NCBI RefSeq assembly: GCF_004340875.1
Contig: NZ_SLXQ01000003.1
Location: 124,001 to 188,000 of the forward strand
DNA: 64,000 bases
Direction of reading: 5' to 3'
Source of the DNA: Tamaricihabitans halophyticus
GTDB lineage: Bacteria > Actinomycetota > Actinomycetes > Mycobacteriales > Pseudonocardiaceae
This document shows positions 17,095 to 49,036 of this stretch, piece by piece; the first letter of the stretch is position 1, and every line of letters starts with the position of its first letter. The position numbers and the translations under genes were made by a program. The notes below the pieces were generated by a model. That model made no database searches. It had not been told where the DNA came from and saw nothing but the letters and a program-made list of their open reading frames with translations.

Positions 17095-17109
17095 CTACCT
17101 TCAAGCTGT

Positions 17110-17123: not shown

Positions 17124-17139
17124 TTATTGGAGGGAAACC

Positions 17140-20084: not shown

Positions 20085-20104
20085 CGCTCACTTGCGCTCG
20101 CCTG

Positions 20105-20137
20105 GTGACCGCATTCTCCACGGATCTTGCGATTACC
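20105..20137. repeat. Stop-linked palindromic repeat, copy d (diverged type 2)
   Basis: A degenerate copy with ACCGCATTCT on the left and ATCTTGCGATTAC on the right. It lies between the convergent GlcD-like gene (stop at 20084) and the methyltransferase pseudogene (end at 20145). Confidence 0.55.
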
Positions 20138-20144
20138 GGGAGTG

Positions 20145-20967: not shown

Positions 20968-21038
20968 GACCGAAATCTACAGCGACTTCATAAAGTTGTG
21001 AAGTTAAGGAAATGTCAGGACGGATTGACTCTTGCTGG

Positions 21039-21860: not shown

Positions 21861-21972
21861 ATCTGAAACGTACGCTTTTCGATCGGTTGCGGGAACCGAC
21901 TAAGGTTTATTACCTGCGGAAACTAAATGTCCGTTTCGTAATGTAAGCGCGACGAAAGCATGGTTCGCCAGA

Positions 21973-29166: not shown

Positions 29167-29190
29167 GCTAACCTCAAAGAACGCGATTAC
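29167..29190. repeat. Stop-linked palindromic repeat, copy h (type 1)
   Basis: This 24-nt element differs from copy a at two positions. It encodes the last codons (NRVL) and stop of mftF and starts 5 nt after the YciI stop. It is the rightmost copy found. Confidence 0.72.
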
Positions 29191-30625
29191 GGGCTGTCAC
29201 CAGTCGGGGTCGCAGCGGGGCGCTGGTTCGGGCGCGCAGCGCGCCCAGCCACAGGCCGTAGCCGTAGCCGAGGTCGTCCAGCCGGTGCAACAGCAGGTAG
29301 CGCAGCGGGTCGGTGCCGGTGGCACCATCGCGATGCGTCAGCCAATCGACGATGCCTTCGGCAACCGCGGCGAACAGCAGCAGCCGGCGTAGCCGGCGAG
29401 ACACCAGCGAGCCGAGCACGGCAAGCGGCCACCAGTGCCTGGTCAGCGCGTGCGCGGCCTGGGCGAGTGCGCCATTCGTCAACTGCGCGTTCAGCCGCAA
29501 CGACAGGGCCATTGGCGCCGGCATGGACCGTAACGAGCGCGCCGTTCGTAGCACGTTCCCGCCGAGTAGCGCTGCCGCGCCGAGCGCGCCCCACCGCCGC
29601 TGCGTGCCCAGTAGTACACAGGCAAGTGCCGCCCATTCCGGCATGTTGACGGGTGGCACGGTCTGTGGATGGCGGAGCGCGAGTGCCGCCGCGCCCGTCC
29701 CGTAGAAAGCCTTCCGCGCCAACCATGGCCCGAACTCGGTGCGATGCTCATGGGCCACCCGCGCGGCCGGCTCGTAGCGCAGCCGCCAGCCGGCGGCGTG
29801 CAGCCGGCAGACCAGATCCACGTCCTCGGCCACCCGCAACTGTTCCGCGAACCCGTCAGCCACCGCAGCGGCTCGGACCACCATGGCCGCACTCGGCACA
29901 TAGGAAACCGGGCTACGCGGCACGATCAGCGCCGGCCGCGCGCCGAGATCCAATGAGGACCGCAGCCGTTCGTACTCGGCGAGCGCACCAGGGGTGGCCG
30001 GCAGCGCGACGATCCGGGGTGCGGCGAGCGCGACCGAGGGATCGTCGAACTGCGCCAGCAGCGGGCCCAACCAGCCGGGCTCGGGCACCACGTCGGAGTC
30101 GAGGAAGGCGACGAACTCGTGCTTGGCGGCGGCAAGGCCGGTGTTGCGTGCCGCGGCCGGTCCCCTGCTGTGCGGATGCCGGAGCAGCAGCGCGCCGTGC
30201 GCGGCCGCGGCGATCGCGGCCGGCTCCGTTGAACCGTCGTCTACCACGATCAACTCCGCGGCCGCCGGCAGTTGCAGCGCGGCAAGCAGCCGGCGCAGTT
30301 CGGTCGGCCGGTCGCGAACCGGGATGACCACTGATACCGGACGTTCCAGCGACTCGGACGGTAACGGATGCGCCAGTCCGGCGTCCAGCAGCCGGCGGGC
30401 AAGCGCGGCGCCGCGCCGGTCCCGAACCACCAGCCGGTCCCCGGTGAACAGCGCGCGAGCGGTGGCGTGCAGCCGCAACACCCTCGGCGGGGAACCGCCG
30501 AGCACGGTGTCCTCGGCCAGCCGGCGTACCCGTTCGTCCAGCCGTACCGCGAAACCGAGCGGCAGCCGCGCATCCGGTGGCCCCGGCAACCCGGGCGGCG
30601 GCGTGAGATGGGCAGGGCGGGTCAT
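29174..30625 (-). CDS. mftF: Mycofactocin glycosyltransferase MftF
   Basis: This 483-aa protein is the family 2 glycosyltransferase that adds a glucan chain to (pre)mycofactocin. After an N-terminal domain (about residues 1-95), the GT-A domain opens with RPVSVVIPVRDRPTEL. It has LIVVDDGSTEP near 125, the metal-binding FLDSDVVPEPG near 173 and an ED-type acceptor-site motif in VAEDVDLVCRLHAAGW. The C-terminal part is hydrophobic and likely membrane-associated. It is the last gene of the twelve-gene operon and its start overlaps the SDR stop by 4 nt. Its final codons come from repeat copy h. Confidence 0.9.
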   Translation of the reverse strand: MTRPAHLTPPPGLPGPPDARLPLGFAVRLDERVRRLAEDTVLGGSPPRVLRLHATARALFTGDRLVVRDRRGAALARRLLDAGLAHPLPSESLERPVSVVIPVRDRPTELRRLLAALQLPAAAELIVVDDGSTEPAAIAAAAHGALLLRHPHSRGPAAARNTGLAAAKHEFVAFLDSDVVPEPGWLGPLLAQFDDPSVALAAPRIVALPATPGALAEYERLRSSLDLGARPALIVPRSPVSYVPSAAMVVRAAAVADGFAEQLRVAEDVDLVCRLHAAGWRLRYEPAARVAHEHRTEFGPWLARKAFYGTGAAALALRHPQTVPPVNMPEWAALACVLLGTQRRWGALGAAALLGGNVLRTARSLRSMPAPMALSLRLNAQLTNGALAQAAHALTRHWWPLAVLGSLVSRRLRRLLLFAAVAEGIVDWLTHRDGATGTDPLRYLLLHRLDDLGYGYGLWLGALRARTSAPLRPRLVTARNRVL

Positions 30626-31407
30626 CCGGTGAACCCACCGTCGGCGTGCACCACACTGCCGGTGAGTGCGGCCGATTCCGCGCCGCACAGCCAATGCAGG
30701 ACCGCGGCGATCTCCTCGGGGTCGAGAATCCGCTCGATCAGCTGGTGCTGGGCGAACTCGGTCACCGACGGCAGGTCGTAGAGTCGCGCGGTGGCCGCGA
30801 GCATGGGCGTATCGGTGGAACCAGGGGATACCGCGACGGCGCACACCCCACTGCCACGTAGATCCGCCGCCAGCCCCTTGATCAGCCCGACCACGGCGTG
30901 TTTCGCCGCGCTGTACGCACCGAGGTGCCACAGTCCGCGATGCGCGGCGGCGGAAGCCAGTGCGATGAACCGGCCATATCCCGCGTCGAGCATGCCGGGC
31001 ACCGTGGCACGTGCCAGGTTCGCCACCCCGCGCACGCCGATATCCAGTAGCGCGTCCCAATCGCCGTCGCTGGTTTCCCACACCGGCGTGCCACCGGCGA
31101 TCACCGAAGCGGCGGCGATCGCCGCGGTTACTCCACCGAACTCGCGCTCGGCGAGCGCAACGGCGTCCCGGAGCGCCTCGGTGTCCCGCACATCCGCGGC
31201 CACATCCAGCACCACACCCGGCCAAGCCTCGGCAAGTGCGGTCAGTTCGGCCCTGCTGGCCAGTGGGTAGGACACGTTCGGATCGTCCGCGCACCGGTCC
31301 AGCGCAACCACCCGCCAGCCGGCACTGGCCAGCCGGGCCACGGTTGCCCGCCCGATACCGCGCGCCGCACCGGTCACCAGCGCCACGTTGCCGGTTTGCT
31401 CGGTCAC
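30622..31407 (-). CDS. Mycofactocin-coupled SDR-family oxidoreductase
   Basis: This 261-aa short-chain dehydrogenase starts at a GTG with GGGAGG 6 nt upstream; an in-frame start at 31437 is less likely. It has ALVTGAARGIGRAT for nucleotide binding, the catalytic set Ser (LASAAAHRG) and Tyr/Lys (AYSAAKHAV), and an SPGSTDTPM loop. SDRs encoded inside mycofactocin loci carry a tightly bound NAD that is re-oxidised by mycofactocin rather than exchanged. This one lies between mftE and mftF with 4-nt overlaps on both sides. The substrate is unknown. Confidence 0.85.
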   Translation of the reverse strand: MTEQTGNVALVTGAARGIGRATVARLASAGWRVVALDRCADDPNVSYPLASRAELTALAEAWPGVVLDVAADVRDTEALRDAVALAEREFGGVTAAIAAASVIAGGTPVWETSDGDWDALLDIGVRGVANLARATVPGMLDAGYGRFIALASAAAHRGLWHLGAYSAAKHAVVGLIKGLAADLRGSGVCAVAVSPGSTDTPMLAATARLYDLPSVTEFAQHQLIERILDPEEIAAVLHWLCGAESAALTGSVVHADGGFTG

Positions 31408-32081
31408 CGCAACCTCCCGTGCTCGTCGAGTTCCCACCGCGTCACCGCGGCGCGTAGCCCATCGACCAGCTGGGCGAGCAGTTCGGCGCCCTCGGCCGCA
31501 GTCGCCCCAGCCGGATCGCCAAGTATCCCGTTTGGACTAAGCTCCCGCAGCCGCCCTGCGCGCAGTTGCGGTAGCAGCTCGGCGATCGGGGTCCGGTTAC
31601 CAGGTTCCGCCCGACTCATGACCACCTGCTCCGGCGCGATGTGCCGGAGCAGCGCCGTCTCCGTGCGGCCGGCATGCGCGTCTACATTGGCCGAGCTCGT
31701 GCAGGCGAACCAGGCGAGCTCCCTACCTTCCGCGCGCAGCAGCCGTACGGCAGCGACCAGTGCACTGGCGTTACCGCCGTGCCCGTTGACGAACACCAAC
31801 CTGCTTGCCCAGCGGGAAGCTGACCGGCCGTACTCCACCAGGACAGTGCGCAGCGCCTCGGTTCCGATCGACACCGTACCGGGAAACGCTTCGTGTTCCC
31901 CGGACGAGCCATAGGGGATCGCCGGTGCCACCGGGATCCCGGTGCCGTGCGCAACGGCGTTGGCGATCCGCGTGTCGGTGTCCAGCGGTAGATGCGGCCC
32001 GTGCTGCTCGCAGGAGCCCACCGGAACCAGCAGCGTGTGCCCTGGGTCCACCGCGGGCCAGGGTGTGTTGGCCAGCTTCAT
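31404..32081 (-). CDS. mftE: Mycofactocin peptidase MftE (creatininase family)
   Basis: This 225-aa metallopeptidase has the creatininase-family metal motif GSCEQHGPHLPLDTD near residue 22, FVNGHGGN near 97 and the HAGRTET segment with a further metal-ligand-type pair near 134. MftE releases the C-terminal Val-Tyr dipeptide core (AHDP) from MftC-modified MftA. It overlaps both neighbours by 4 nt. In most loci mftD sits directly before mftE; here the ETF beta gene does. Confidence 0.92.
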   Translation of the reverse strand: MKLANTPWPAVDPGHTLLVPVGSCEQHGPHLPLDTDTRIANAVAHGTGIPVAPAIPYGSSGEHEAFPGTVSIGTEALRTVLVEYGRSASRWASRLVFVNGHGGNASALVAAVRLLRAEGRELAWFACTSSANVDAHAGRTETALLRHIAPEQVVMSRAEPGNRTPIAELLPQLRAGRLRELSPNGILGDPAGATAAEGAELLAQLVDGLRAAVTRWELDEHGRLR

Positions 32082-32917
32082 GGCAGGTAGCCGCGTTGCT
32101 CGAGGTAGTCGAGTAGTTCGCTGGCCGCCGCGGCGGCGTTCGCCGGGAAGACCAGCCTGGGTGGTTCGTGTTCCGTCAGTGCACCGGTTAACGCTCGCAC
32201 TCGCTGCCCGGGCGCCGCGCCAGCTGGCGCGGCTATCGCTCGGGTGCGCGGCCGGTAGGCGGTTCGTGCCCGGCGCCGGATACGAGTGTCCACAAAGGAC
32301 TCAGCAGGGCTGGCGACCGGGATCTCCGCCTCCCGCGCGGCAAGTAGACCGGGGAGCGAGGCCCGCCGTAGCCGCACGGTGCTCGGTTCCACTGAGCACA
32401 CGGCGGGCAGTTCGATCGCGAGCCGTTCCCTGCGGCCGCAGTCCAGCCTGCGTTCGGCCCGCAGTCCACCGTTGTGGCTGGTCAGCTCCACCAGGCCGAG
32501 TGCCTGGCTGGCACCGAACCGAGCGGCGAGCAACGCAGGGGTGGCACCGGTGCCCCGATCCATCGAGTAGTCACCGCAGAGCAGTAACGCGGGATCGGCA
32601 TACCGGGCGCGGATGGCCTCGGTGAGTAGCCGCGCGGTATGCCCTTCCGAGGCCGGCTCGCCAGCAACCCGCAGCGCTTCGGTCGCGCCGGCGGCAAGTG
32701 CGGTGCGCAGTACCTCGTCCGCCTCCTGCGGACCAACCGTGCAGGCAAGGCAGCGCGCGTCAAGGGATTCGGCCATCCGTAGGGCGTGTTCCAGTGCGCA
32801 TTCGTCCGCCGTGCTCAGGCCGCCACGGGGCTGCGCGTACACGGTGCCGGTCAGCGGGTCCACGGTGGCGAACGGGTCCACCTGGCGCAGTGCCACCACG
32901 ACTAATGCCTTGCCCAT
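32078..32917 (-). CDS. Electron-transfer flavoprotein beta subunit, mycofactocin-associated
   Basis: This 279-aa protein is an ETF beta/FixA homologue. It begins MGKALVVVALRQVDPFATVD, has DECALEHALRMAE near residue 37, and LLLCGDYSMDRGTGATPALLAARFG in the AMP-binding region (normally G-x-x-D-x-x-x-x-x-x-P). It is 10-20 residues longer than the usual ETF beta and its C-terminus is basic. Together with the ETF alpha at 34565-35488 it should form a soluble FAD-containing electron carrier. The two subunits are separated by the quinone-reductase and ferredoxin genes, an unusual order. It overlaps the mftE start by 4 nt. Confidence 0.82.
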   Translation of the reverse strand: MGKALVVVALRQVDPFATVDPLTGTVYAQPRGGLSTADECALEHALRMAESLDARCLACTVGPQEADEVLRTALAAGATEALRVAGEPASEGHTARLLTEAIRARYADPALLLCGDYSMDRGTGATPALLAARFGASQALGLVELTSHNGGLRAERRLDCGRRERLAIELPAVCSVEPSTVRLRRASLPGLLAAREAEIPVASPAESFVDTRIRRRARTAYRPRTRAIAAPAGAAPGQRVRALTGALTEHEPPRLVFPANAAAAASELLDYLEQRGYLP

Positions 32918-32921
32918 CGCG

Positions 32922-33212
32922 TCACCCCTTCCGGAAGGCGACGCCCGTGCCGCCGTCCGGGTAGCTCCAGCTGATCGCGCCCGCCTTGTTGCACAACAGA
33001 TAGCAGCTGCCGCATTCGAAACACTGCTCGTAGTTGAACAGGATGCCGCCGTCGTTGGTGGGTACGAACAGGTTCGCCGGACAGGCGGTAACGCATTCCC
33101 TTGTCGTACAGGAACGGCAGATCTCGGTGTCCACTTCGATATGCGCGCGCTCGCCAACCCGGAAGTTCACCGTGGACATCCGGTCTTCGAAGGAGATCTC
33201 GTCGTAGCGCAT
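32922..33212 (-). CDS. FixX-like ferredoxin
   Basis: This is a 96-aa iron-sulfur protein. Two cysteine sets are visible: Cys32, 35, 40, 44 (in CRSCTTRECVTACP) and Cys64, 67, 70, 74 (in CFECGSCYLLC), followed by the FixX-type ending SWSYPDGGTGV. It corresponds to the ferredoxin-like domain that is fused to ETF:quinone oxidoreductase in eukaryotes and separate in FixX/YdiT systems. The ATG at 33212 follows GAGG; an adjacent ATG at 33215 is possible. It lies 7 nt after the FixC-like gene, with which it should form one quinone-reducing unit. Confidence 0.88.
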   Translation of the reverse strand: MRYDEISFEDRMSTVNFRVGERAHIEVDTEICRSCTTRECVTACPANLFVPTNDGGILFNYEQCFECGSCYLLCNKAGAISWSYPDGGTGVAFRKG

Positions 33213-33219
33213 CATCACC

Positions 33220-34572
33220 TCATCCGTACGAACGTATGCCGCTGATCGCATCCCTGGCCAGGTCGCGCAACCGGACACCATGCCGTTTCGCGCTGCGCAG
33301 CAGTAGTTTCCGGAATCCGGGTTTTGGTTGCGGGTTTGTCACCTGGAATACGCCCTCAACCAGATCGCAGAGCATCGCCGGGTACTTCCGCTGTACTCGC
33401 TCGGACATCAGCAGGCCCGGCGCGCCACGCAACTTGTGGTGATCGGCAAGGACGAAGGAGCTGGCCAACCGCTCACGGTAACCGGCAAGGCCACGCGTCG
33501 AGGTGTCCCCGGCGGCGAGCGCGGCGGCAGCGGCCCTGCCCGCATACATCCCGGAGCCGATCGCGAAGTTCACCCCCTCCAGCCAGATTCCCGCGGCCAG
33601 GCACATGGCGGCAGCGTCCCCAGCGATCAACAGTCCGTTTCCGGTCAGCGTGGGCATGCTGTGGTATCCGCCCTCGGGGATCAGATGCGCGGCGTATTCG
33701 ACGATCTCGCCGCCACGCACCAGCGGCGCGATCGATGGATGCCGCTTCAGCTCAGCGATCAGTTCTTCCGGGCGCACCTTGGCTTTACCCAGCTCGGTCA
33801 AGTCGACGACGACGCCGATGCTCAGCGAGTCCAGATTGGTGTACAGGAAACCACCGCCGGGAATTCCCTTGGTGGCGCCGATCATCTCGATGTCCACCCC
33901 GTCGGTGCCGCGGACGCCGAACCGTTCCTCGATGGTTTCCCTTGGTAGCGCGAGGGTTTCCTTCACGCCGAGCGTGCTGTTTGCCAGCTGGTCCTCGGCG
34001 TAGAGCCCAGCCTGTTTGGCCAGAAACGAGTTGACCCCGTCCGCGGCGATCACCACCCCGGCATCCAGGTCACCGTCCGGGCGGTCCGTTCGCACCCCGA
34101 CGATCCGGCCGCCCGGATCCGTGCGCAACGCGGTGACCAGTGTCGAGGTGAGTAGTTTCGCGCCTGCCTCTTCGGCTTTACCGGCCAGCCACGCGTCGAA
34201 GTCCGCGCGATGGGTGGTGGCTCCATTATATGGTGGCTTTCCCCAGTTTTCGGTGCGAAAGTCCACGGTGAGTGCCTGGCCGGGCGTGAGCAGCATGGTC
34301 TGCCTGCGGGTGACCCAGCGCTGGATCGGGGCTTCGGTCCACCAGTTCGGGATCAACTCATCGAGCACCCGGCCGTAAACCACGCCGCCGTAAACGTTCT
34401 TCGCGCCGGGAAAGCTGCCACGCTCCAGCAGCGCTACCCGGCGGCCGGCCCTGGCGAGCTCGATAGCCGCGGCCGAACCGGCCGGCCCAGCGCCGACGAT
34501 CACCGCGTCGAAGCTCGCCACGCCACGTTCTCCCTCGGCCACCCGCACCGGGCTCGACATTGGACTAGTCAT
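33220..34572 (-). CDS. FAD-dependent oxidoreductase, ETF:quinone oxidoreductase (FixC) type
   Basis: This 450-aa flavoprotein is of the FixC/ETF-QO family. The Rossmann FAD motif VIVGAGPAGSAAAIELA lies near residue 24. The region NVYGGVVYGRVLDELIP and the GDAAAMCLAAGIWLEGVNFAI segment near the second FAD motif are typical. The C-terminal region is amphipathic and could touch the membrane. It probably takes electrons from the locus-encoded ETF and, with the FixX-like ferredoxin, reduces menaquinone. It overlaps the ETF alpha stop by 8 nt. ATG 34560 is an alternative start. Confidence 0.88.
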   Translation of the reverse strand: MTSPMSSPVRVAEGERGVASFDAVIVGAGPAGSAAAIELARAGRRVALLERGSFPGAKNVYGGVVYGRVLDELIPNWWTEAPIQRWVTRRQTMLLTPGQALTVDFRTENWGKPPYNGATTHRADFDAWLAGKAEEAGAKLLTSTLVTALRTDPGGRIVGVRTDRPDGDLDAGVVIAADGVNSFLAKQAGLYAEDQLANSTLGVKETLALPRETIEERFGVRGTDGVDIEMIGATKGIPGGGFLYTNLDSLSIGVVVDLTELGKAKVRPEELIAELKRHPSIAPLVRGGEIVEYAAHLIPEGGYHSMPTLTGNGLLIAGDAAAMCLAAGIWLEGVNFAIGSGMYAGRAAAAALAAGDTSTRGLAGYRERLASSFVLADHHKLRGAPGLLMSERVQRKYPAMLCDLVEGVFQVTNPQPKPGFRKLLLRSAKRHGVRLRDLARDAISGIRSYG

Positions 34573-35488
34573 CCGTCGTCCCCTTCACGCCGAGCCGATC
34601 GGCAAGCTCGGCGAGCAGTGCTGCCGCATCGGTGACAATGCCGAGATCGGCCATGGTGGTCATCGGGCAGCTCGGATCCGTGTTCACGCTGACCAGATGG
34701 CGTGTCCCGGCAATCCCGCCGATATGTTGCGCCGCACCGGAAATCCCGAAGGCGATGTAGAGATCCGGGTGGATAACCACACCGGTGGTGCCGATCTGCC
34801 GTGCGTAGTCCGCGAAACCGGCATCGGTGACCACCCTGGTGGCGCCGACCGAGGCGCCAAGCATCTCGCCGACGGCCTGTAGCATGGCCACCGCCTCGGC
34901 TCCGGCCGGCGCGGTGCCCGTGGTGAGTCCGGCGCCGGCGCCAAGAATCCGTGGTGCCTCGGCAAGGTCAGCGGTCCGCGGATCAGGCGGCAGCACCGCG
35001 ACGACCGTAGGATCGGCCGAATCCACAGGGGACCAGGCAAGTTCGGTGAGCCGCGGAGCATCGGGCGCTGGGCTCGCGGTACGGGTTCCCGGCAGCAGTG
35101 TCGCGACAAACGGCCCGGTGACGGCGAGATCGTCGATTACCCGGGATCCCCAGCGGGCGAGCGCCGCGCCCTCCTCGGTGACTTCGATCGCTCCGGCGAG
35201 CAGCGGCACATCGAGCTCATCGGCCAGCCGGGGAGCCAGATCGCGTCCATCGGGTGCGGCCGGTAGCACCACCACCTGGTCCCGGAGTAGATCGGCCAGG
35301 CCGGTCGCCCAGCCAGCCGGGGCGAAAGCGCCCGCTTCGATCAGCCGGCAGTCACGCAGGGCGCTGAGTTCGTCGGCGGCTTGCGCCGTGCCAGAACCGA
35401 TCAGCACCGCATGCCCGGCGGCCTCGGCCACCGTCTCGTTGGCGCCGAGTGGCGCGGTTGCGTCCCGGACCGGGATGACCGCGATCAT
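34565..35488 (-). CDS. Electron-transfer flavoprotein alpha subunit, mycofactocin-associated
   Basis: This 307-aa protein has the ETF alpha/FixB C-terminal FAD domain. It contains ILGAGAGLTTG, the GASVGATRVVTDAGF loop and the signature IAFGISGAAQHIGGI followed by VNTDPSCPMTTMADLGIV. The N-terminal half is divergent from housekeeping EtfA proteins. It partners with the ETF beta at 32078-32917. It overlaps the OYE-type gene by 4 nt and lies between the FadH/OYE flavoproteins and the quinone reductase, which suggests the direction of electron flow. Confidence 0.87.
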   Translation of the reverse strand: MIAVIPVRDATAPLGANETVAEAAGHAVLIGSGTAQAADELSALRDCRLIEAGAFAPAGWATGLADLLRDQVVVLPAAPDGRDLAPRLADELDVPLLAGAIEVTEEGAALARWGSRVIDDLAVTGPFVATLLPGTRTASPAPDAPRLTELAWSPVDSADPTVVAVLPPDPRTADLAEAPRILGAGAGLTTGTAPAGAEAVAMLQAVGEMLGASVGATRVVTDAGFADYARQIGTTGVVIHPDLYIAFGISGAAQHIGGIAGTRHLVSVNTDPSCPMTTMADLGIVTDAAALLAELADRLGVKGTTDD

Positions 35489-37446
35489 ACCGCCACCCCC
35501 GCTCGATGCCCCTCGACCACCGCGGCATGCGCCCTGCGCGGGGTCAGGCAGTCGCCAATCCGGTGTACCGGTACGTCCAATGTAGCTAGTTCAGCGACCA
35601 GCTCATCGCACGGGCGCGGGTGCGTCGCGCAGACCACCCAGTCCGCGGCCAGCTCGGTCGCTTCTCCCGTGGTGTGCCGCAGGATCTGTAGCACTACCTG
35701 CTCACCAGCGGATTCCGCGCCGAGCACAACCAGGTCGGTGTCCTGCGCGATCTCCTTCGCATCCGCGCGGATCTGCCAGGTTTCCATATCCAGGGTTATC
35801 CCGAGATCCTGGCCAACAACCATTCCGGAGGTGATCACCCGAACCGTGCACCCCCGGTCCGCGAGCAGTTCGGCAACCGAAGTTGCCTGGTGAAAGCCGA
35901 GGTCATCCACGAGCACCACGGTCCCCTGTGGACTCGCCGCACCGGTGAGTACATCTCGGATATCCACCACTTTCGGAATATCGCCCGCCCACCACGGACG
36001 GTCCGCGATTGCCCCGGTGGCAAGTACCACCGCATCCGGTTTTTCCGCGCGTACCAGGTCGAGATCGCCAACCACCCCGGTACGGATCCGCACGCCGTAG
36101 CGCTGACATTCGGCGAGCAGATTGCGTGTGATGTCAAGGAATTCCGCCCTGCTTGGCACGCTGGCGGCCAGCGCGACCTGCCCGCCGGTCCGCTCCGCGC
36201 GTTCGACCAGTGTCACCAGCTGCCCGGACTGCGCGGCGGTGGACGCGGCCTGCAACCCCGCCGGGCCACCACCGATTACCAGTACCCGTTTCGGTCGTTG
36301 CGTGGGTACTGGCAGTGGCAGGCTGCTTTCCTTGCCGGTTCGCGGATTCTCGATACAACCAAGCCAGCGGTTCAGCCCCATCCGGCCAACGCACTCCTGG
36401 TTACAGGAAAGGCAGGTGCGGATATCCGTGGCGTGCCCGGCGCGTGCTTTGGCGGCGAAATCCGGGTCCGCGATCTGGCCGCGCACCACGCCAATCAGAT
36501 CGCACTGGCCATCCGCGAGTGCCCGCTCGGCCTGCACCGGATCCTTGAACCGGCCGACCCCAACGACCGGTAGCCGCACGTTCTCCCGGATGGTGCTCGG
36601 GATGAACATCGCGTAGCCGGGCGGGATATGCATGGATGCTTCGATCATGAACAGCGTCGCGGTCGCCACGCCGATCGAGGTGTTCAGATAATCCACCTTG
36701 CCGGTTCGTTCCACCAGCTTGGCAACCTCGACGGCCTCGTCGATGGTGGTGCCGTGCTCGATCAGCTCATCCCCGCAGATCCGGACACCGAGCGCGGCGC
36801 GCGGGCCGATCGCCTCGCGTACCGCCCCGACGATCTCCAGCAGGATTCGTGCCCGGTTGGCGAGCGATCCGCCGTAGGCGTCGGTGCGGATGTTCGTCGC
36901 GGGGGACAGGAAACCGCGCACGATCGAGGAATGTGAGCACTGGAGTTCCACGCCGTCGAATCCGCCGGAGATACAGTGTTCCGCGACGGTCGCGTAGCCG
37001 CGCACGATCTCCGCGATCTCGTCGCTGGTCACGGCTTTCGGTACCTCGCGGAAGAGCGGGTCGGCCACCGCGCTCGGCGCCCATACCGGCAACCGCGAGT
37101 ACATACTGGACGCCTGACCGCCGTTGTGGTTGAGCTGCGCGAGGATCGGCACATCATGCGCGTGTACCGCCTCGGTGATCCGGCGGTAGCCGGGCACAAC
37201 CGAGGGATTGAAGCCATGGATCAGTTTCTCGTACGGCCAGTCGGTCGGATGGGTGGAGTGTTCCTCGGTGATGATCAGCCCGGCGCCGCCGGCCGCGCGT
37301 GCCGCGTAGTAGGCCGCGTGCTGCTCGCTCGGCAAACCGTCTTCTGCGTAGTTCGTCAGATGCGCGGCGAACACCACGCGGTTGCGCAGGGTCAGTGGGC
37401 CCAGCCGGAGCGGGCTGAACAGGTACCGGTACCGGCCGCCCGTCAT
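35485..37446 (-). CDS. Mycofactocin-system FadH/OYE-family oxidoreductase (copy B, complete iron-sulfur motif)
   Basis: This 653-aa iron-sulfur flavoprotein resembles 2,4-dienoyl-CoA reductase. The N-terminal old-yellow-enzyme barrel (FMN) keeps the SPATNIRTDAYGGSLANR segment near 181-198. The [4Fe-4S] motif is complete, with Cys345-x2-Cys348-x3-Cys352-x11-Cys364. The second half has an FAD/NAD fold beginning RVLVIGGGPAGLQAA near 390. The family passes electrons through FAD, [4Fe-4S] and FMN. Its role in mycofactocin loci is unproven; exchange between mycofactocin, NAD(H) and ETF is a reasonable guess. It overlaps both neighbours by 4 nt. Confidence 0.87.
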   Translation of the reverse strand: MTGGRYRYLFSPLRLGPLTLRNRVVFAAHLTNYAEDGLPSEQHAAYYAARAAGGAGLIITEEHSTHPTDWPYEKLIHGFNPSVVPGYRRITEAVHAHDVPILAQLNHNGGQASSMYSRLPVWAPSAVADPLFREVPKAVTSDEIAEIVRGYATVAEHCISGGFDGVELQCSHSSIVRGFLSPATNIRTDAYGGSLANRARILLEIVGAVREAIGPRAALGVRICGDELIEHGTTIDEAVEVAKLVERTGKVDYLNTSIGVATATLFMIEASMHIPPGYAMFIPSTIRENVRLPVVGVGRFKDPVQAERALADGQCDLIGVVRGQIADPDFAAKARAGHATDIRTCLSCNQECVGRMGLNRWLGCIENPRTGKESSLPLPVPTQRPKRVLVIGGGPAGLQAASTAAQSGQLVTLVERAERTGGQVALAASVPSRAEFLDITRNLLAECQRYGVRIRTGVVGDLDLVRAEKPDAVVLATGAIADRPWWAGDIPKVVDIRDVLTGAASPQGTVVLVDDLGFHQATSVAELLADRGCTVRVITSGMVVGQDLGITLDMETWQIRADAKEIAQDTDLVVLGAESAGEQVVLQILRHTTGEATELAADWVVCATHPRPCDELVAELATLDVPVHRIGDCLTPRRAHAAVVEGHRAGVAV

Positions 37447-39395
37447 ACCGTGCTCACCGGCAGCTGGTGCGATGTCATGAGGGCAAGCGCGGCACGCCTG
37501 CCCTCGAGTACCGCCTCGTGCACGGTACGTGGCGCGACGCAGTCGCCTGCCTTCGGCAGCTCCGGGCGCTCGCCGGCGAGGGTTTCCTCGGGCAGCCGGT
37601 GTCCACAGTGCAGTACGGCCGCGCAGTCGATCTCCCGTGTTGCTCCAGTAAACCGGTTCTCCAGGACGGCTCGATCCGGGGACACCTCGCGAAGCAGGGT
37701 GCCCTTGTGCAGGACCACGCCGGCTCGCTGTAGCCGGGCGTTTGCCTCCGCCAGATCCCCGGTGATCGCCAGCTGGGTGCCAACCACCTGATCCGGGGTG
37801 ACGATCGCGGTGGGTAGCCCGTGGCTGGCCAGCAACTCGGCGGTGCCGACGCCGACTGGACCGCCAACCGGATCATGCACCAGGATCGACCCGGACGGCA
37901 GCAGCTCCCGTGGTTCATACCCGGCCAGTATCCGGGTATAGAACTCGGCGTCGTCGAGCACGACCGCATCCGCGAGCGCGGTGAACTCCCTACGTCCAGG
38001 TGAGCTGCCGGTTGCCAGCAACACCAGCTCAGCATTGTCCACATCAGACAATGTTGCTTCAGTTCCGGTGTGGATCTCGACGCCCAGTTCGGTGACCCGA
38101 TCAACCAGCCAGTCGGCGAAGCCGGCAAGTCGAGCGCGCCCGCCGACCAGGGCGGCGAGTCGTAGTGCCCCGCCAAGCTGGCCGGTACGCTCAACCAACC
38201 GGACGCGGTGCCCGGCCGTTGCGAGTACCCGCGCGGCCTCCAGCCCGGCCGGCCCGCCGCCAACCACCAGCGCCTCAGTCGCTTGCGCCGGCACGACAGG
38301 CTCTGGGTCGACGGTCTCGTAGCCGGTGCGCGGTTCCACCGCACAGCTGATGATCGGGTTGCGGTTATCCCGTACCAGGCATTTCGCGTTGCTCAACCCG
38401 CACGGCCGTGGCTGGATCCCGGCGCGGGTTTTGCGCACCAGGTCCGGATCGGCGAGCTGCGCGCGGGTCATCTCGACCAGATCGGCCACACCGTCATCCA
38501 GGGCCCATTGCGCCTGACCGGGATCGACCACACTGCCCTGTAGTACGACTGGAACGGTGTTGCCGACCGCCGCACGCAGTTGGCGGCACAGCTCGATATT
38601 GAAGCCCGGTTCGGTGTGCAGATCCGGCCGGGTGGCCGAACCGGCCATCGCCGAGCCGCGCACCACAACGAGATAATCGATCGAGTCAGCGAGCTCGCGC
38701 ACCTGATCGACCGCGTGTTCCGGGGTTATCCCGGCCCACGGGGCCAGCTCGTCACCGCAGAACCGGAGCCCGAGCAGTCGATCACCGAGCCGGTGGCGTA
38801 CCGCGCCGATCACCTCGCGGAGCAGCTTGAGTTTGTCCGTCCCCCATTCGTCGCCGCGCAGGTTGGTGAGACCGGAGCCGAACTGCCGCAGCAAGCTGTG
38901 CTGTCCCGCGTTCAGTTCCACCCCGTCCATGCCCGCCTCGACGGCGATCGCGGCTGCCGAACCGAAACCGCCGATCAGCGCGGTGATCTCGGTGCCAGTG
39001 AGCTCCATCGGCAGCTCGCGGCTCGCCACATCGGGCACTCTGGACGGTGCCCAGAGCGCGGACTGGGAGTATGCCGATGATCCCTGCGAGCCGGTGTGGC
39101 CGAGGCCGGCGATCGCCAGGCTGCCGTGCTCATGGACCGCCTGCGCGATCTCCGCCCAACCAGGGCCACATCCGGCGGCGAGCGGCGCTCGCTCGTAGGG
39201 CCAGTCGGATGCGTGCACGCTGGCCGTCTCGGTGACGATAACGCCACAGCCACCTGCGGCGCGTCGCAGGTAGTAAGCGGTATGCCGGCCGGAGAACGCC
39301 CGGCCACGCCCGAGGTTCGTCTCGTGTGGACCGAACAGTACCCTGCTCGGCGCGCTCCGGTCGCCGATAGTGCAGGGCTCGACAAGGGAGTTCAC
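37443..39395 (-). CDS. Mycofactocin-system FadH/OYE-family oxidoreductase (copy A, variant iron-sulfur motif)
   Basis: This 650-aa paralog of copy B has the same barrel-plus-Rossmann layout (ALVVGGGPAGLEAARVLA near 380). Two features differ from FadH. The usual YGGSxxNR segment reads EWGTDKLK. In the iron-sulfur motif the second ligand is Ser335, so the set is Cys332, Ser335, Cys339, Cys351. The enzyme may bind an altered or serine-ligated cluster and may have lost ordinary enoate-reductase chemistry. It follows mftC directly (4-nt overlap). Function is inferred only from context. Confidence 0.85.
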   Translation of the reverse strand: MNSLVEPCTIGDRSAPSRVLFGPHETNLGRGRAFSGRHTAYYLRRAAGGCGVIVTETASVHASDWPYERAPLAAGCGPGWAEIAQAVHEHGSLAIAGLGHTGSQGSSAYSQSALWAPSRVPDVASRELPMELTGTEITALIGGFGSAAAIAVEAGMDGVELNAGQHSLLRQFGSGLTNLRGDEWGTDKLKLLREVIGAVRHRLGDRLLGLRFCGDELAPWAGITPEHAVDQVRELADSIDYLVVVRGSAMAGSATRPDLHTEPGFNIELCRQLRAAVGNTVPVVLQGSVVDPGQAQWALDDGVADLVEMTRAQLADPDLVRKTRAGIQPRPCGLSNAKCLVRDNRNPIISCAVEPRTGYETVDPEPVVPAQATEALVVGGGPAGLEAARVLATAGHRVRLVERTGQLGGALRLAALVGGRARLAGFADWLVDRVTELGVEIHTGTEATLSDVDNAELVLLATGSSPGRREFTALADAVVLDDAEFYTRILAGYEPRELLPSGSILVHDPVGGPVGVGTAELLASHGLPTAIVTPDQVVGTQLAITGDLAEANARLQRAGVVLHKGTLLREVSPDRAVLENRFTGATREIDCAAVLHCGHRLPEETLAGERPELPKAGDCVAPRTVHEAVLEGRRAALALMTSHQLPVSTV

Positions 39396-40582
39396 CGCAG
39401 GTCCGCGAGGGGGCTCTCGTCGCAGGCTCGGTCCGGCATGCGCATCGATGGCAAGCCGAGCGAGACGGGTTTACGCTTACCGGTCCGCGAGTGGTCCTGG
39501 CTCGGCCTCGGCAGCGCCGTCGAATCCCTAGTGGACAGTCCGTGCTCGCCGTGGCCCTTGACACACTCCGGATCGGGGCCGTCCAGTGGCAGGCCGGTGA
39601 AGAACTTCGCCGCCATGCAGCCACCCTGGCAACTGTCATAGGCAGGGCAGGCGGTGCACACCCCACCGGTCTGTGGTTGGCGCAGCTCCTGGAACAGCTC
39701 TGATTCCCGCCACACCTTCGCGAATCCAGCTGTGCGGACGTTTCCCGCCTTGAACAGGTCATGGATGGTGAACGGGCAGGCGTAGACATCACCGACCGGA
39801 TCAATCAGACACACCACGCGTCCCGCTCCGCAGAGGTTCAGTCCGGGCAGGGTTTCCGTGCCCATCGCATTGAGATGGAAGAACGAGTCGCCGGTGAGTA
39901 CTCCCTCGCCGTGCGCGAGCAACCATTGGTAGAGCACGCGCTGCTGCTCGACGGTCGGATGCAGCTCGTCCCAGACGTCCGCGCCACGGCCGGACGGGCG
40001 GAGCCTGGTGATCCGCAACTGCGCGCCGAACGAGTCCGCGATGCGTTTGAACTCGTCGAGCTGGCCGATGTTCTGCCTGGTCAGCACCACGGAGATCTTG
40101 GCGTCCCGGAATCCGGCTTCGGCAAGATTGGCCAACGCGCGCATTGCCATCTCGTAGGAACCCGGCCCGCGGATCGCGTCATTGACTTCGGGCGTGGCCC
40201 CGTCAAGGGAAACCTGTACGTCCACATAGTCGGTTGCCGCGAGCTGCCTGGCACGCTCTTGGGTGATCCGCACGCCGTTGGTGGAGAACTTCACGCCAAC
40301 CCGGTGCGCGATGGCGTACTCGAGCAGTTCCCAGAAGTCCGCGCGTACCGTGGGTTCGCCGCCGCCCACGTTGACATAGAACACCTGCATGCGTTCCAGC
40401 TCGTCGATGATTCGCTTCATCTCTACTGTGGACAGCTCGTTTGGATCGCGTTTTCCCGATGAGGAAAGGCAATGCGTGCAAGCGAGATTGCAGGCATAGG
40501 TCCATTCCCAGGTCAGGCAGATCGGCGCGTCGAGCCCGTACTTGAACTGCTCGACCAGCGACGGCACGGTTGCGGTGGTCAT
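39392..40582 (-). CDS. mftC: Mycofactocin radical SAM maturase MftC
   Basis: This 396-aa radical SAM protein decarboxylates the C-terminal tyrosine of MftA and forms the Val-Tyr cross-link. The SAM-cluster motif is Cys31-x3-Cys35-x2-Cys38 in CNLACTHC, followed by VNVGGGEPTVR. The C-terminal SPASM region carries many cysteines (LNLCGAG, YACPF, GVCTACPAYDSCQGGC) for auxiliary clusters. A longer frame is open upstream, but the ATG at 40582 overlaps the mftB stop by 4 nt and gives the usual family length. Confidence 0.95.
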   Translation of the reverse strand: MTTATVPSLVEQFKYGLDAPICLTWEWTYACNLACTHCLSSSGKRDPNELSTVEMKRIIDELERMQVFYVNVGGGEPTVRADFWELLEYAIAHRVGVKFSTNGVRITQERARQLAATDYVDVQVSLDGATPEVNDAIRGPGSYEMAMRALANLAEAGFRDAKISVVLTRQNIGQLDEFKRIADSFGAQLRITRLRPSGRGADVWDELHPTVEQQRVLYQWLLAHGEGVLTGDSFFHLNAMGTETLPGLNLCGAGRVVCLIDPVGDVYACPFTIHDLFKAGNVRTAGFAKVWRESELFQELRQPQTGGVCTACPAYDSCQGGCMAAKFFTGLPLDGPDPECVKGHGEHGLSTRDSTALPRPSQDHSRTGKRKPVSLGLPSMRMPDRACDESPLADLR

Positions 40583-40860
40583 GGATCCTGCTCCACGATC
40601 ATGTCGGTGGCTGCGAGTGAGTTGAGCGCGCGCAGATAGTTCGCGCGGGTCCGCTCCGGCAGGCCGGCCAGCGCCGCGCCGAGGCTGGGGTGGGAACCGA
40701 GCTCCCGGACGAAGGTGACCAGCTCCGGGGCCTTCAGGAAAGACAGCCTCCGGTTGCCGAAATGGTAGGCGAGCGCGCCGAACGGCTCGGGGCGTAGCGC
40801 CACACTCGGGTTGAGTTGATATGGCCGATCGAGGTGGAGATCGGTGCCAGTGGCGGGCAT
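40579..40860 (-). CDS. mftB: Mycofactocin precursor chaperone MftB
   Basis: This 93-aa RiPP recognition element protein presents the MftA precursor to MftC. It shows the PqqD-like pattern with YQLNPSVALRPEPFGALAYH, then RRLSFLKAPELVTFVREL. It starts 6 nt after the mftA stop and overlaps mftC by 4 nt. Size and position are canonical. Confidence 0.93.
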   Translation of the reverse strand: MPATGTDLHLDRPYQLNPSVALRPEPFGALAYHFGNRRLSFLKAPELVTFVRELGSHPSLGAALAGLPERTRANYLRALNSLAATDMIVEQDP

Positions 40861-40866
40861 CGGAGA

Positions 40867-40980
40867 TCAGTACACGCCGCACATGCCGTCGATCGACACC
40901 TCTTCGACCAGCAGCTCATCGGCATCGTCCACGTTCGCGGTATCGTCGGTCGCCCGCTCGACGGTGATGTCCTGCGCCAT
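40867..40980 (-). CDS. mftA: Mycofactocin precursor peptide MftA
   Basis: This 37-aa precursor has an acidic leader and the invariant C-terminal core IDGMCGVY. The final Val and Tyr are the residues that MftC modifies and MftE later releases. GAGGAGG lies just before the ATG at 40980. It is the first gene of the operon, and its 85-nt upstream region is shared with mftR. Confidence 0.96.
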   Translation of the reverse strand: MAQDITVERATDDTANVDDADELLVEEVSIDGMCGVY

Positions 40981-40994
40981 GGTGAACCTCCTCG

Positions 40995-41021
40995 TTGAGA
41001 TTTGCCGCTGGTTATTCTCAA
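40995..41021. promoter_or_regulatory. Candidate MftR operator between mftA and mftR
   Basis: Inverted arms TTGAGA (40995-41000) and TCTCAA (41016-41021) are 15 nt apart in the divergent gap. This is a plausible binding site for the TetR-family MftR, by position only. Confidence 0.4.
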
Positions 41022-41064
41022 GGTAATGGCACTCGGTGTCGATTGGAAGGGGTGAGCGCGAATC

Positions 41065-41664
41065 GTGGCCGAAAGCAGTAACGTCGCGGTGCGCCGCGGC
41101 GGCCGCCGGCGCAGTACTTCCCGTGCCGCACTGGAACATCTGGCCTTCGAACTGTTCGACGAGCGCGGTTTCGAGGACACCACGATCGAGGACATCGCGG
41201 CCGCTGCCGGGATCGGCCGGCGAACCTTTTTCCGCTACTTCCCGTCCAAAAATGACGTTCCGTGGGGCAGCTTCGACGAGCAGCTCGACGTGATGCGCGC
41301 GCGTTTCGCCGCCTGTCCAGCGGAGATGCCGTTGCTGGACGCGGTAAGGGAAGTCGTCGTTGACTTCAATCGGGTGGACCAAGCCGAGGTTCCCTGGCTG
41401 CGCCGGCGGATGCGATTCATCCTCACCGTGCCCGCGCTGCAGGCGCATTCCACGCTGCGCTACGCGGATTGGCGCCTGGTGGTCGCCGAGTTCGTTGGCG
41501 AACGCCTTGGTGAACCGGCGGATGCGCTACGCCCGCAGGCGATCGCACACGCCACCCTCGGCGTGGCGATCGCCGCATACCAGCAGTGGTTGGCCGACCC
41601 CACGGTCGAGCTGACCCAGCTGCTGGATACCGCGCTGCGCGCGCTGTCCACCGGCTTCGCCTAA
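41065..41664 (+). CDS. mftR: Mycofactocin regulator MftR (TetR family)
   Basis: This 199-aa TetR regulator has an N-terminal basic stretch and the helix-turn-helix TTIEDIAAAAGIGRRTFFRYFPSK at about residues 39-62. The GRRTFFRYF segment is typical of MftR. In mycobacteria MftR represses the locus and is released by long-chain acyl-CoA. It is divergent from mftA, as usual. The GTG at 41065 has only a distant GGAAGGGG upstream. It converges with the alcohol dehydrogenase gene, 9 nt apart. Confidence 0.9.
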   Translation: MAESSNVAVRRGGRRRSTSRAALEHLAFELFDERGFEDTTIEDIAAAAGIGRRTFFRYFPSKNDVPWGSFDEQLDVMRARFAACPAEMPLLDAVREVVVDFNRVDQAEVPWLRRRMRFILTVPALQAHSTLRYADWRLVVAEFVGERLGEPADALRPQAIAHATLGVAIAAYQQWLADPTVELTQLLDTALRALSTGFA

Positions 41665-41673: not shown

Positions 41674-42786
41674 TCAGCTGTCGTGCACGATCACGCCGCG
41701 GATGTTCTTGCCATCGCGTAGATCCTGGTAGCCCTGGTTGACCTGCTCGAGCGTGTACTTGTTGGTCACCAGTTCATCCAGCTTGAGCTGGCCGGCGTCG
41801 TAGAGCCGGAGCAGTCGCACGATGTCGTACTGCGGGTTCGCCGAACCGAACAGGGTGCCCTTGATCGTCTTCTCGAACAGCGTCATCGCGCCGCCGGAGA
41901 CGTGCACGGTCAACTTCTCCGGATTCGCCAACCCGGTGATCACGACCGTGCCGCCCTTGCCGATCGCGTCGAACGCCGCGCTCACCACGGCTTCCTCCAC
42001 GATGCCCACCGTGACCAGCGCCTGATCGGCGCCCTGGCCCCAGGTCAGCTCCTCCACCTTCGCGGCGGCTTCCTCGGCCGACTGGAATGCGTGCGTGGCA
42101 CCGAGTTTCAGTGCGGTGTCCAGTTTGAACTGCACGGGATCGACAGCAACCACGTGCTTGGCGCCCGCATGTGCCGCGCCCTGTACGGCGTTGATGCCGA
42201 TACCGCCGATGCCATAGATGATCGCGGTGTCCCCGGCGCGCACGCCGCCCGCGTAGTTCGCCGTCGCCCAACCAGTCGGTACCCCGCAGCCGACAAGCAC
42301 CGCCGTCTCCAGCGGCAGCCAATCGTCCACTTTCACCACCGAGTGCTGGGAGATCGTGGCGCGCTCGGAGAACGTACCGAGCATGCACATCGCGCCGTAG
42401 TCCGTGCCGTTCGCGGAGAACCGGAAGGACCCGTCCGGCATGAACCCGTCCAGTATCGTCGCGCCCATATCGCACAGGTTCTGCCGGCCGGTCGAGCAGT
42501 ACCGGCAGGTGCCGCAGTTCGGGATGAAGCTGCAGACCACGTGATCGCCCGGCTTGACCTTGGTGACCCCGGGGCCAACATCCTCGATGATCCCCGCGCC
42601 TTCGTGCCCACCAACGCAGGGGAAGCGCGGCACGAGGTCGCCATCGGTCAGGTGCAGATCGGAGTGGCACAGCCCCGCCGCGGTGTATTTGATCAACACT
42701 TCGCCCGCACGTGGACCTTCCAGATCCAGCTCGACGAGCTCGAACGGCTGGTTCGCCCCGTAAAGCACCGCTGCCTTCGTCTTCAC
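41674..42786 (-). CDS. NDMA-dependent (mycofactocin-dependent) zinc alcohol dehydrogenase
   Basis: This is a 370-aa medium-chain alcohol dehydrogenase. Catalytic zinc ligands are in GLCHSDLH and GGHEGAGI; the structural zinc loop is CGTCRYCSTGRQNLC. The coenzyme fold has IIYGIGGIGINAVQGA. The sequence belongs to the Rxyl_3153/NDMA-dependent group, whose NAD stays bound and is re-oxidised by mycofactocin (by the dye NDMA in vitro). The GTG at 42786 has AGGAGG 8 nt upstream; an in-frame GTG at 42795 is too close to it. It probably oxidises primary or secondary alcohols and supplies the electrons that the mft/ETF locus handles. Confidence 0.92.
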   Translation of the reverse strand: MKTKAAVLYGANQPFELVELDLEGPRAGEVLIKYTAAGLCHSDLHLTDGDLVPRFPCVGGHEGAGIIEDVGPGVTKVKPGDHVVCSFIPNCGTCRYCSTGRQNLCDMGATILDGFMPDGSFRFSANGTDYGAMCMLGTFSERATISQHSVVKVDDWLPLETAVLVGCGVPTGWATANYAGGVRAGDTAIIYGIGGIGINAVQGAAHAGAKHVVAVDPVQFKLDTALKLGATHAFQSAEEAAAKVEELTWGQGADQALVTVGIVEEAVVSAAFDAIGKGGTVVITGLANPEKLTVHVSGGAMTLFEKTIKGTLFGSANPQYDIVRLLRLYDAGQLKLDELVTNKYTLEQVNQGYQDLRDGKNIRGVIVHDS

Positions 42787-42912
42787 TACCGCCACCTCCT
42801 GTGCGCTGACCCACTTGGTTATCGCTCATTGTGAGCCGGCGCACAGTTGGCTAAGTGTGCAAATCCTGGACAGTGCCCTGCGACCTCCTTCGTCAGGTAT
42901 TGATGCCCATCC

Positions 42913-44559: not shown

Positions 44560-44665
44560 ATCACACTCCTCGTTGAGTGGCTGTGAGCCTGTCGGGATCC
44601 CGAACACCCATCATGGCAGCGCGCGGCCGAACTATGAAGCCCCGCGCATATGTCTGGTTCGCGGT

Positions 44666-45130
44666 TCAGTACACCCCGGCGAGCTTGCGGTGATCCCAGC
44701 TCACCACTTTGGTCGGGGTGCACACCAGGCCAACGCGCTTGCTCGCCTGCGCGCGCAGGAACTCCTGGGCATCGCCGTTGCCGGCGCCGAGCCCGGAATA
44801 GCGCTCGGTGAGCCCGGTGCCGATCGCCAGCACCTCAGCAGGGTCTTCGATGATCGACACATCGCATTCCATCGATACGCCGGTGAGCCGCTCGTAGCTG
44901 TCGCCGTCCTCGACAAGCACGGTGGCCTGGGCAAGCCGGCGTAGGTTCGCCACCTTCTGGGAGCTGCCGTAGGTCCAGGTGGCCAGGCCGGTATCGCGCG
45001 GTACGTACCAGACCGGCGCCAGATGCGGACGGCCGTTCGGTCCGATCGTGGCGATATTGGCTACCCGCTGTTCGGCAAGGTAGGCAACTACTTCGTCTGG
45101 CGTCATCTTGATTTGCGCCCGTCGGGACAC
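44666..45130 (-). CDS. Pyridoxamine 5'-phosphate oxidase-fold protein (possible F420-dependent)
   Basis: This 154-aa split beta-barrel protein of the PPOX superfamily has VANIATIGPNGRPHLAPVWY near residue 22, the KVANLRRLAQATVLVED stretch in the middle and RVGLVCTPTKVVSWDHRKL at the end. Actinobacterial members often bind F420 or heme/FMN and reduce or bind small molecules. The GTG start at 45130 follows GGGAGG; ATG 45106 is an alternative. It lies 106 nt before the GAF/Fis gene (same strand). A direct role in alcohol metabolism is not evident. Confidence 0.78.
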   Translation of the reverse strand: MSRRAQIKMTPDEVVAYLAEQRVANIATIGPNGRPHLAPVWYVPRDTGLATWTYGSSQKVANLRRLAQATVLVEDGDSYERLTGVSMECDVSIIEDPAEVLAIGTGLTERYSGLGAGNGDAQEFLRAQASKRVGLVCTPTKVVSWDHRKLAGVY

Positions 45131-45210
45131 CGTGCCTCCCGTATGCGTTATCTGGATCTCCTCGTGTCCGAGGCTACGTCAGGAACGTACGCGTACTGGC
45201 CCAACTGGTT

Positions 45211-48779: not shown

Positions 48780-48820
48780 AACTGACTCCGGGTGATTTCA
48801 TGGATGGACTGGGACAGGTT

Positions 48821-49030: not shown

Positions 49031-49036
49031 TGGCCA

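Follow-up and report, generated by a model that had tools for sequence, protein, structure and literature searches.

The reference for mycofactocin biosynthesis is the canonical mycobacterial mftA-G locus. Its MftD is described as carrying out the oxidative deamination of 3-amino-5-[(4-hydroxyphenyl)methyl]-4,4-dimethyl-2-pyrrolidinone (AHDP) to pre-mycofactocin, with AHDP forms accumulating in an mftD mutant (PMC7491314), and the step has been described as aerobic (PMC8406134). MftG is lacking in about 25% of the genomes with mftC, and what replaces it was left open in the report of that figure (PMC11778925). The locus studied here lies in a 64,000-nucleotide stretch of the Tamaricihabitans halophyticus genome (contig NZ_SLXQ01000003.1; the whole stretch is called the window below). 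Like the mycobacterial locus, it has mftA, B, C, E, F and mftR, all above curated cut-offs; unlike it, the locus has neither mftD nor mftG, and two FadH/OYE (old yellow enzyme) family proteins, OYE1 and OYE2, an electron transfer flavoprotein (ETF) and FixC- and FixX-like proteins (FixCX) stand between mftC and mftE.

The closest published description is that of Saccharopolyspora clusters analyzed with BGCFlow (PMC11162802), in which TIGR03997 (OYE2) is present, TIGR03966 (MftD) is absent and the function of the FadH/OYE gene is called unknown. That work covers 17 clusters of one genus; as far as its relevant parts go, it gives no genome-wide co-occurrence of MftD and ETF and assigns no role, and the word "flavoprotein" is absent from its main text. 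It also states that the antiSMASH 6.1.1 rules need mftD to recognize mycofactocin clusters. OYE1, OYE2 and the two ETF subunits are members of the NCBIfam families TIGR03996, TIGR03997, NF038209 and TIGR04503, whose names give an association with mycofactocin and not a function. In the open-licence literature, with print elsewhere possible, no paper was found that joins mycofactocin with "electron transfer flavoprotein", and for mycofactocin with TIGR03997 only the BGCFlow paper was found, with no published function. Others had already noted the gene families and the lack of mftD in clusters of Saccharopolyspora; the module-wide pattern and its reading as an MftD replacement are new.

The operon occupies positions 29174–40980 of the minus strand, with twelve consecutive genes in the order mftA-B-C-OYE1-OYE2-etfA-fixC-fixX-etfB-mftE-SDR-mftF (40980 down to 29174; SDR, short-chain dehydrogenase/reductase) and intergenic gaps of −8 to +7 bases. 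The twelve coupled genes of the earlier note are thus all present, and profile and PDB matches bear out its placement of two FadH/OYE proteins, both ETF subunits, a FixC-like protein and a FixX inside the mftA-F operon. Ten of the twelve exceed their NCBIfam cut-offs, the FixC-like and FixX-like genes being the exceptions. A chance assembly or misread frames were ruled out by the open frames, the ten families above cut-off and the conserved gene order.

40867–40980, minus strand: mftA, precursor peptide with C-terminus IDGMCGVY (TIGR03969, 43.2 bits, cut-off 25; PF23709); the matches lie on the C-terminal part of the open reading frame 40867–41448, and an ATG was chosen as start
40579–40860, minus strand: mftB, peptide chaperone (TIGR03967, 107 bits, cut-off 33)
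39392–40582, minus strand: mftC, radical SAM maturase (TIGR03962, 642 bits); single copy above cut-off in a genome-wide profile search
37443–39395, minus strand: OYE1, FadH/OYE family oxidoreductase 1 (TIGR03996, 833 bits)
35485–37446, minus strand: OYE2, FadH/OYE family oxidoreductase 2, the proposed AHDP-oxidizing flavoenzyme (TIGR03997, 972 bits)
34565–35488, minus strand: mft_etfA, mycofactocin-associated ETF alpha (NF038209, 410 bits, cut-off 240; PF00766 FAD domain)
33220–34572, minus strand: FixC-like ETF:quinone oxidoreductase (NF007542, 324 bits, below the cut-off of 610; PF21162 ETFQO_UQ-bd, 28.2 bits); top PDB match Thermotoga maritima FixC, 7KOE_C, 262 bits
32922–33212, minus strand: FixX-like ferredoxin with two 4Fe-4S motifs (top match 7KOE_D, 58 bits)
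32078–32917, minus strand: mft_etfB, mycofactocin-associated ETF beta (TIGR04503, 312 bits, cut-off 200)
31404–32081, minus strand: mftE, creatininase-like peptidase (TIGR03964, 307 bits)
30622–31407, minus strand: mycofactocin-coupled SDR (TIGR04504, 373 bits, cut-off 250)
29174–30625, minus strand: mftF, glycosyltransferase (TIGR03965, 500 bits, cut-off 280)

Distribution of the module relative to MftD and MftG

The module is restricted to mycofactocin makers in a sample of the phylum and is anti-correlated with MftD. Among 396 evenly drawn genomes, 53 of them mftC-positive, mft_etfA was above cut-off in 8, all inside the 53, and OYE2 in 9 of the 53, namely the 8 module genomes and G186. Of the 45 mftC-positive genomes lacking the module, 44 had MftD above cut-off, as against 1 of the 8 carrying it (Fisher test, 4e-7, kinship ignored). 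The one module genome with MftD is T. halophyticus itself, through a drifted copy described below, and the only MftD-less genome among the 45 is G186, which carries a diverged module cluster. In a second sample of 328 genomes from the order, 169 were mftC-positive and 14 had the module (one of these, G580, is 75% complete and has no mftC call). Here 153 of the 156 mftC-positive genomes lacking the module had MftD, compared with 6 of the 14 module genomes (Fisher test, 3e-8, kinship again ignored), and the three MftD-less genomes without the module are drafts 74–86% complete.

Since these tests ignore kinship, the comparison was also made within families. MftD was present in 0 of 3 genomes with the module and 7 of 7 without it in one family (f30, p 0.008), and in 0 of 8 and 4 of 5, respectively, in another (f84, p 0.007). 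When both samples were pooled with 26 distinct named genomes, with doubles removed by identical MftD positions, MftD was above cut-off in 9 of 43 module genomes. Where mftC was present and no module was called, the figure was 183 of 187, the four exceptions being one genome with a diverged module and three incomplete drafts. A lactate-dehydrogenase paralogue acting as a hidden MftD in all module genomes was ruled out, since TIGR03966 gave no match at E ≤ 1e-60 in 9 of 34 module genomes (8 from the phylum sample and the 26 named); the top sub-cut-off score among the 34 was 359 bits.

On a quick tree of 113 MftC sequences, from which the short rows L102, L104 and L108 were left out, presence of the module switches about 20 times, each switch being a gain or a loss, and supported branches require at least 10 of these. 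Close relatives on this tree agree with repeated swaps between module and MftD: among genomes with the module and no MftD, G284 shares a three-row clade with G102 (MftD, no module), Prauserella muralis lies beside G662 (MftD), and G091, G188 and G252 (no MftD) lie beside G313 (MftD). Seven module Amycolatopsis (A. sacchari with MftD, five without, one unscanned) are placed beside the MftD-positive G545, G563, G666 and G705.

MftG shows a different pattern. Scored with TIGR03970 alone of the three MftG models (TIGR04542 and NF038210 represent its Gordonia and Dietzia forms), it was above cut-off in 12 of the 53 mftC-positive genomes of the phylum sample, all 12 in one family (f2), where two further genomes (G288 and G298) have a lower-scoring gene of the glucose–methanol–choline (GMC) oxidoreductase family about 12 and 7 kb from mftC. 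TIGR03970 was above cut-off in none of the 39 mftC-positive genomes outside that family, of which 31 have no called module, and in none of the 8 module genomes. Since MftG is missing outside this family with or without the module, its absence is no clue to the role of the module.

The T. halophyticus assembly (6.39 Mb, completeness 98.67%) was searched for both genes. Neither is among the twelve operon genes by profile search, and the earlier note's description of the operon as lacking mftD holds for the operon and the window. It is not strictly true of the genome, because one gene of the MftD clade exists on another contig (C12:101375–102499), the genome's only TIGR03966 match above cut-off (525.8 bits, cut-off 470.85). 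It groups with the MftDs (support 96/98), its long branch measuring 1.92 changes per column. Of the 148 positions that do not vary among 22 other MftDs, 33 differ in it, whereas any one of the 22 departs from the others at 0–13; from its sequence, it looks like a drifted copy. The gene is directly followed by a GMC oxidoreductase and then by a glutamate-1-semialdehyde aminomutase-like aminotransferase (L043, 9358–13376). The lack of mftG was confirmed genome-wide, with no MftG above cut-off for TIGR03970 or TIGR04542; NF038210 was applied to the two best GMC candidates only. One of these, on contig C4, was ruled out as a choline dehydrogenase (BetA, 811 bits). The other is the GMC on C12, which scored 215, 158 and 104 bits against cut-offs of 387, 400 and 300 (TIGR03970, TIGR04542 and NF038210) and clusters with choline-dehydrogenase-like GMCs outside MftG (support 98/98). 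The C12 pair was thereby ruled out as a hidden mftDG.

Gene order of the module in other genomes

The module is found well beyond T. halophyticus and recurs in Actinomycetota. Species genomes were scanned with an OYE2 alignment, which gave 266 stretches encoding relatives; the counts of loci rest on the best 80 of these 266. EtfA (at least 96 bits) lies beside OYE2 in 71 of the 80, and in 8 of the remaining 9 the contig ends within 1.4 kb past OYE2, the ninth (L103) having 5 kb without EtfA. The usual order in the 71 is mftA-B-C-OYE1-OYE2-etfA-fixC-fixX-etfB, followed by mftE, the SDR and mftF variably ordered, with inversions in L131, L134 and L135. The etfB-FixX-FixC-EtfA block of L131 and L135, together with mftE, is flipped with respect to OYE2 and mftF; it can therefore move as one piece. 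Where contigs are long enough, the operons usually retain MftE, MftF and the mycofactocin-type SDR. The flanks of the 80 loci, many shortened by contig ends, contain no MftD match of at least 120 bits and no MftG match of at least 96 bits. Loci were found in Pseudonocardiaceae, Frankiales, Streptosporangiaceae, Acidimicrobiales, Microthrixaceae and others, as well as in one metagenome bin labeled Acidobacteriota.

In G091 and G188, the module is spread over three contigs (mftBC-OYE1; OYE2; ETF-FixCX-mftE-mftF) with all these parts retained, evidence that function, and not just linkage, ties them together. The diverged cluster of G186 (L167, 6990–14824) has a distant MftC (41% identity) followed by OYE2, EtfA, FixC, FixX, EtfB (35 bits) and MftF. 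Its mft_etfA is not above cut-off, no OYE1 was seen in the stretch, and the genome has nine OYE2-like matches; the cluster is possibly a neighboring peptide-cofactor system.

OYE2 also occurs on six Streptomyces plasmids (73.6–75.1% identity). The two examined carry the operon amid natural-product genes, one without an annotated SDR, and no mftD is annotated within their stretches, the gene table being incomplete. Both are linear, with the operon at 10490–22170 (L175, a polyketide synthase nearby) and at 8367–19708 (L176, an aromatase/cyclase nearby). The RefSeq names on the plasmids are "mycofactocin system FadH/OYE family oxidoreductase" and "mycofactocin-associated electron transfer flavoprotein". 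On these plasmids, mycofactocin may serve tailoring steps.

A possible role in place of MftD

Since the module tends to occur where MftD is missing, it is suggested to do MftD's job. We lean towards the reading that OYE2, the ETF and FixCX form an ETF-linked, menaquinone-coupled replacement for MftD in AHDP oxidation, which perhaps also oxidizes mycofactocinol. Because MftA has the same IDGMCGVY and MftB, MftC and MftE are present, the same AHDP core should be made, judging from sequence. MftC and MftE would yield AHDP, and OYE2, with flavin mononucleotide (FMN), one 4Fe-4S cluster and a seemingly lost NAD(P)H loop, would oxidize the C–N bond of AHDP or of glycosylated AHDP to an imine or alpha-keto amide (pre-mycofactocin). 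The electrons would leave singly via the 4Fe-4S cluster to the dedicated ETF, then to FixX, FixC and menaquinone, a route proposed by analogy with trimethylamine dehydrogenase (TMADH) and its ETF and with T. maritima EtfABCX. The substrate, electron acceptor and direction given here for the module are likewise those we infer. OYE1 might be an accessory or partner subunit, or a second substrate-oxidizing subunit, possibly for mycofactocinol, and the same chain may recycle the cofactor. As the only gene of the two seen in the G186 cluster is OYE2-like, OYE2 is the likelier core.

The proteins resembling OYE2 include amine dehydrogenases such as TMADH, which transfers electrons from a 4Fe-4S cluster to an ETF (PMC8097209). 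Alignments of OYE2 with histamine dehydrogenase, the amine oxidase 6L6J and 2-naphthoyl-CoA reductase (NCR) are near full length, while those with dienoyl-CoA reductase (DCR) and TMADH reach residues 514 and 551, respectively. For OYE1, the alignments with NCR, histamine dehydrogenase and 6L6J cover the length of the protein. A model of OYE2 built with AlphaFold from 25 sequences had a mean confidence (pLDDT) of 75.6, with values under 50 at residues 346–382 around the cluster. It matched NCR (Z 40.0, root-mean-square deviation (rmsd) 3.4, 614 residues aligned), TMADH (2TMD; Z 38.9, rmsd 3.6, 613), 6L6J (Z 37.9, rmsd 3.5, 616), DCR (Z 37.9, rmsd 3.1, 606) and histamine dehydrogenase (3K30; Z 37.7, rmsd 3.9, 617). 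The Z values are close, and among the matches listed no other kind of enzyme matched over about 600 residues. The predicted fold has the TMADH/histamine dehydrogenase architecture over its full length, with an FMN barrel, a 4Fe-4S cluster and nucleotide-binding halves, this agreement being best tested for residues 3–380 and less well for the remaining half.

The cluster cysteines C345, C348, C352 and C364 of OYE2 are invariant in 86 of 86 aligned sequences, as are H29-L-T-N32, E167, Q169, S171, H172, S173 and S174. At the position of the glycine-rich loop of NCR, pairwise alignments (that with DCR stopping at 514) give D514-(D/E)-x-G517-F-H, with D514 and G517 in 86 of 86. This resembles 3K30 and 6L6J more than NCR and suggests that OYE2 is unlikely to exchange hydride with NAD(P)H. 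OYE2 is like TMADH and histamine dehydrogenase in fold, in the 4Fe-4S cysteines and in the ETF partner of its operon, and by alignment its NAD(P)H loop may likewise be degenerate; unlike them, it has DCR-type cysteine spacing. In OYE1 of T. halophyticus, one 4Fe-4S cysteine is replaced by Ser, Cys being present in 55 of 74 aligned sequences.

In ETF alpha, R218 and H255 are conserved in 76 of 76 aligned sequences. The motifs RPXFGG, RXGV and GXXSPTXV mark group-2 bifurcating ETFs (PMC10734219). R112 (69 of 76) matches the Arg of RPXFGG in the alignment, yet the sequence there is R..WGSR, so the motif as such is not conserved; ETF beta has neither RXGV nor GXXSPTXV in alignments read by eye. 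The ETF is read as a plain carrier because these motifs are not kept. FixC and FixX are homologous to the quinone-reducing half of T. maritima EtfABCX (a FixABCX complex), whereas the ETF subunits are far diverged from those of that complex. All eight FixX cysteines are invariant in 73 of 73 aligned sequences.

Several observations weigh against this role. OYE2 scores higher with NCR (262 bits) and DCR (256) than with histamine dehydrogenase (183) and TMADH (172). It also has Leu30 (86 of 86) at the position, taken from the 3K30 alignment, of TMADH Cys30, the residue that links the flavin covalently; 6L6J has Ala there. The swap between module and MftD is strong, not absolute, and the two are not exclusive: the nine module genomes with MftD are six Saccharopolyspora, one genome from the genus group to which two of these belong, Amycolatopsis sacchari and T. 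halophyticus. Except in the last, their MftDs score 682–710 bits and therefore look intact. A second mftB-C-D cluster, also seen in two of the nine (G402 and G410), may explain MftD there, while four (G532, G638, G709 and G725) carry MftD and the module with a single mftC, so that both coexist around one maturase. In addition, a full respiratory chain seems lavish for one biosynthetic step, and no biochemistry for these proteins was found in the open-licence literature.

A wider form of the proposal is possible, though we hold it only tentatively. ETF-linked OYE2 would be a second, O2-independent pre-mycofactocin synthase that oxidatively deaminates AHDP, passes the electrons on to menaquinone and, together with OYE1, re-oxidizes mycofactocinol as well. 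A single dedicated chain would then take the place of MftD and MftG alike, and the self-contained operon encoding it would be mobile, even reaching natural-product plasmids of Streptomyces.

Other explanations and neighboring genes

The earlier note had read the module as a route from mycofactocinol to menaquinone. The path that it drew, from a FadH/OYE protein through the ETF and FixC/FixX to menaquinone, fits the anatomy, and with OYE1 as the entry point for mycofactocinol that reading would be partly right. As a full account, it would make the module a mycofactocinol:menaquinone oxidoreductase chain standing in for MftG, with OYE1 or OYE2 oxidizing reduced mycofactocin. An ETF with FixCX suits such a high-flux catabolic role, none of the 8 module genomes has MftG by TIGR03970, an N,N-dimethyl-4-nitrosoaniline (NDMA)-type alcohol dehydrogenase adjoins the operon, and electron flow from the pre-mycofactocin couple (PMFT/PMFTH2, −255 mV) to menaquinone (−74 mV) is downhill (PMC11778925). 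However, the distribution points elsewhere, as the gene anti-correlated with the module is mftD. MftG is equally lacking by TIGR03970 in the 31 genomes that have no called module, so its absence does not call for one, and the missing MftD is left unexplained. A stand-in for MftG is accordingly regarded as rather unlikely, though one of the two OYE proteins may have an MftG-like role.

A lower probability still is given to a mycofactocin variant, in which the AHDP amine is retained or another bond altered and MftD is not needed. Members of the OYE family usually act on C=C or C=O bonds, and in pairwise alignments the conserved stretches at the expected active site of OYE1 and OYE2 are unlike those of solved relatives; the missing MftD would also be accounted for. 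Against this improbable variant, the operons usually retain MftE, MftF and the SDR, as described above, and a report of methylated mycofactocin from Saccharopolyspora erythraea, cited in the BGCFlow paper (PMC11162802), may count against it too, depending on the mftD status of that species. Lastly, a bifurcating FixABCX-type complex making low-potential ferredoxin, e.g., for the radical SAM enzyme MftC, is very improbable: although FixC and FixX are nearest in the PDB to T. maritima EtfABCX and FixX keeps its two 4Fe-4S motifs and invariant cysteines, a bifurcating ETF was rejected on the motifs, and the EtfX clusters of T. maritima sit on the branch to quinone (PMC10734219), the role proposed above for FixX.

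Two further mycofactocin-related genes lie next to the operon:

41065–41664, plus strand: mftR, TetR-type regulator, divergent from mftA (TIGR03968, 281 bits)
41674–42795, minus strand: NDMA-dependent (mycofactocin-linked) alcohol dehydrogenase (TIGR03989, 557 bits, cut-off 440)

Upstream of the alcohol dehydrogenase, a minus-strand set at 42913–52953, all with matches below cut-off, contains a DhaR-like regulator, a thiolase/lipid-transfer protein, an acyl-CoA ligase and a pair resembling caprolactamase/acetophenone carboxylase subunits. The set may encode a pathway for breaking down secondary alcohols or ketones that feeds the mycofactocin-linked dehydrogenase. An Rfam scan of the window at gathering thresholds gave zero matches.

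The proposed replacement of MftD by the OYE2-ETF-FixCX module would explain, in a way open to testing, how the cofactor is completed in organisms lacking mftD and how some makers without MftG link it to respiration. If true, ETF-linked FadH/TMADH-type chemistry would be extended into cofactor biosynthesis, and the mftD requirement in genome-mining rules would be corrected.

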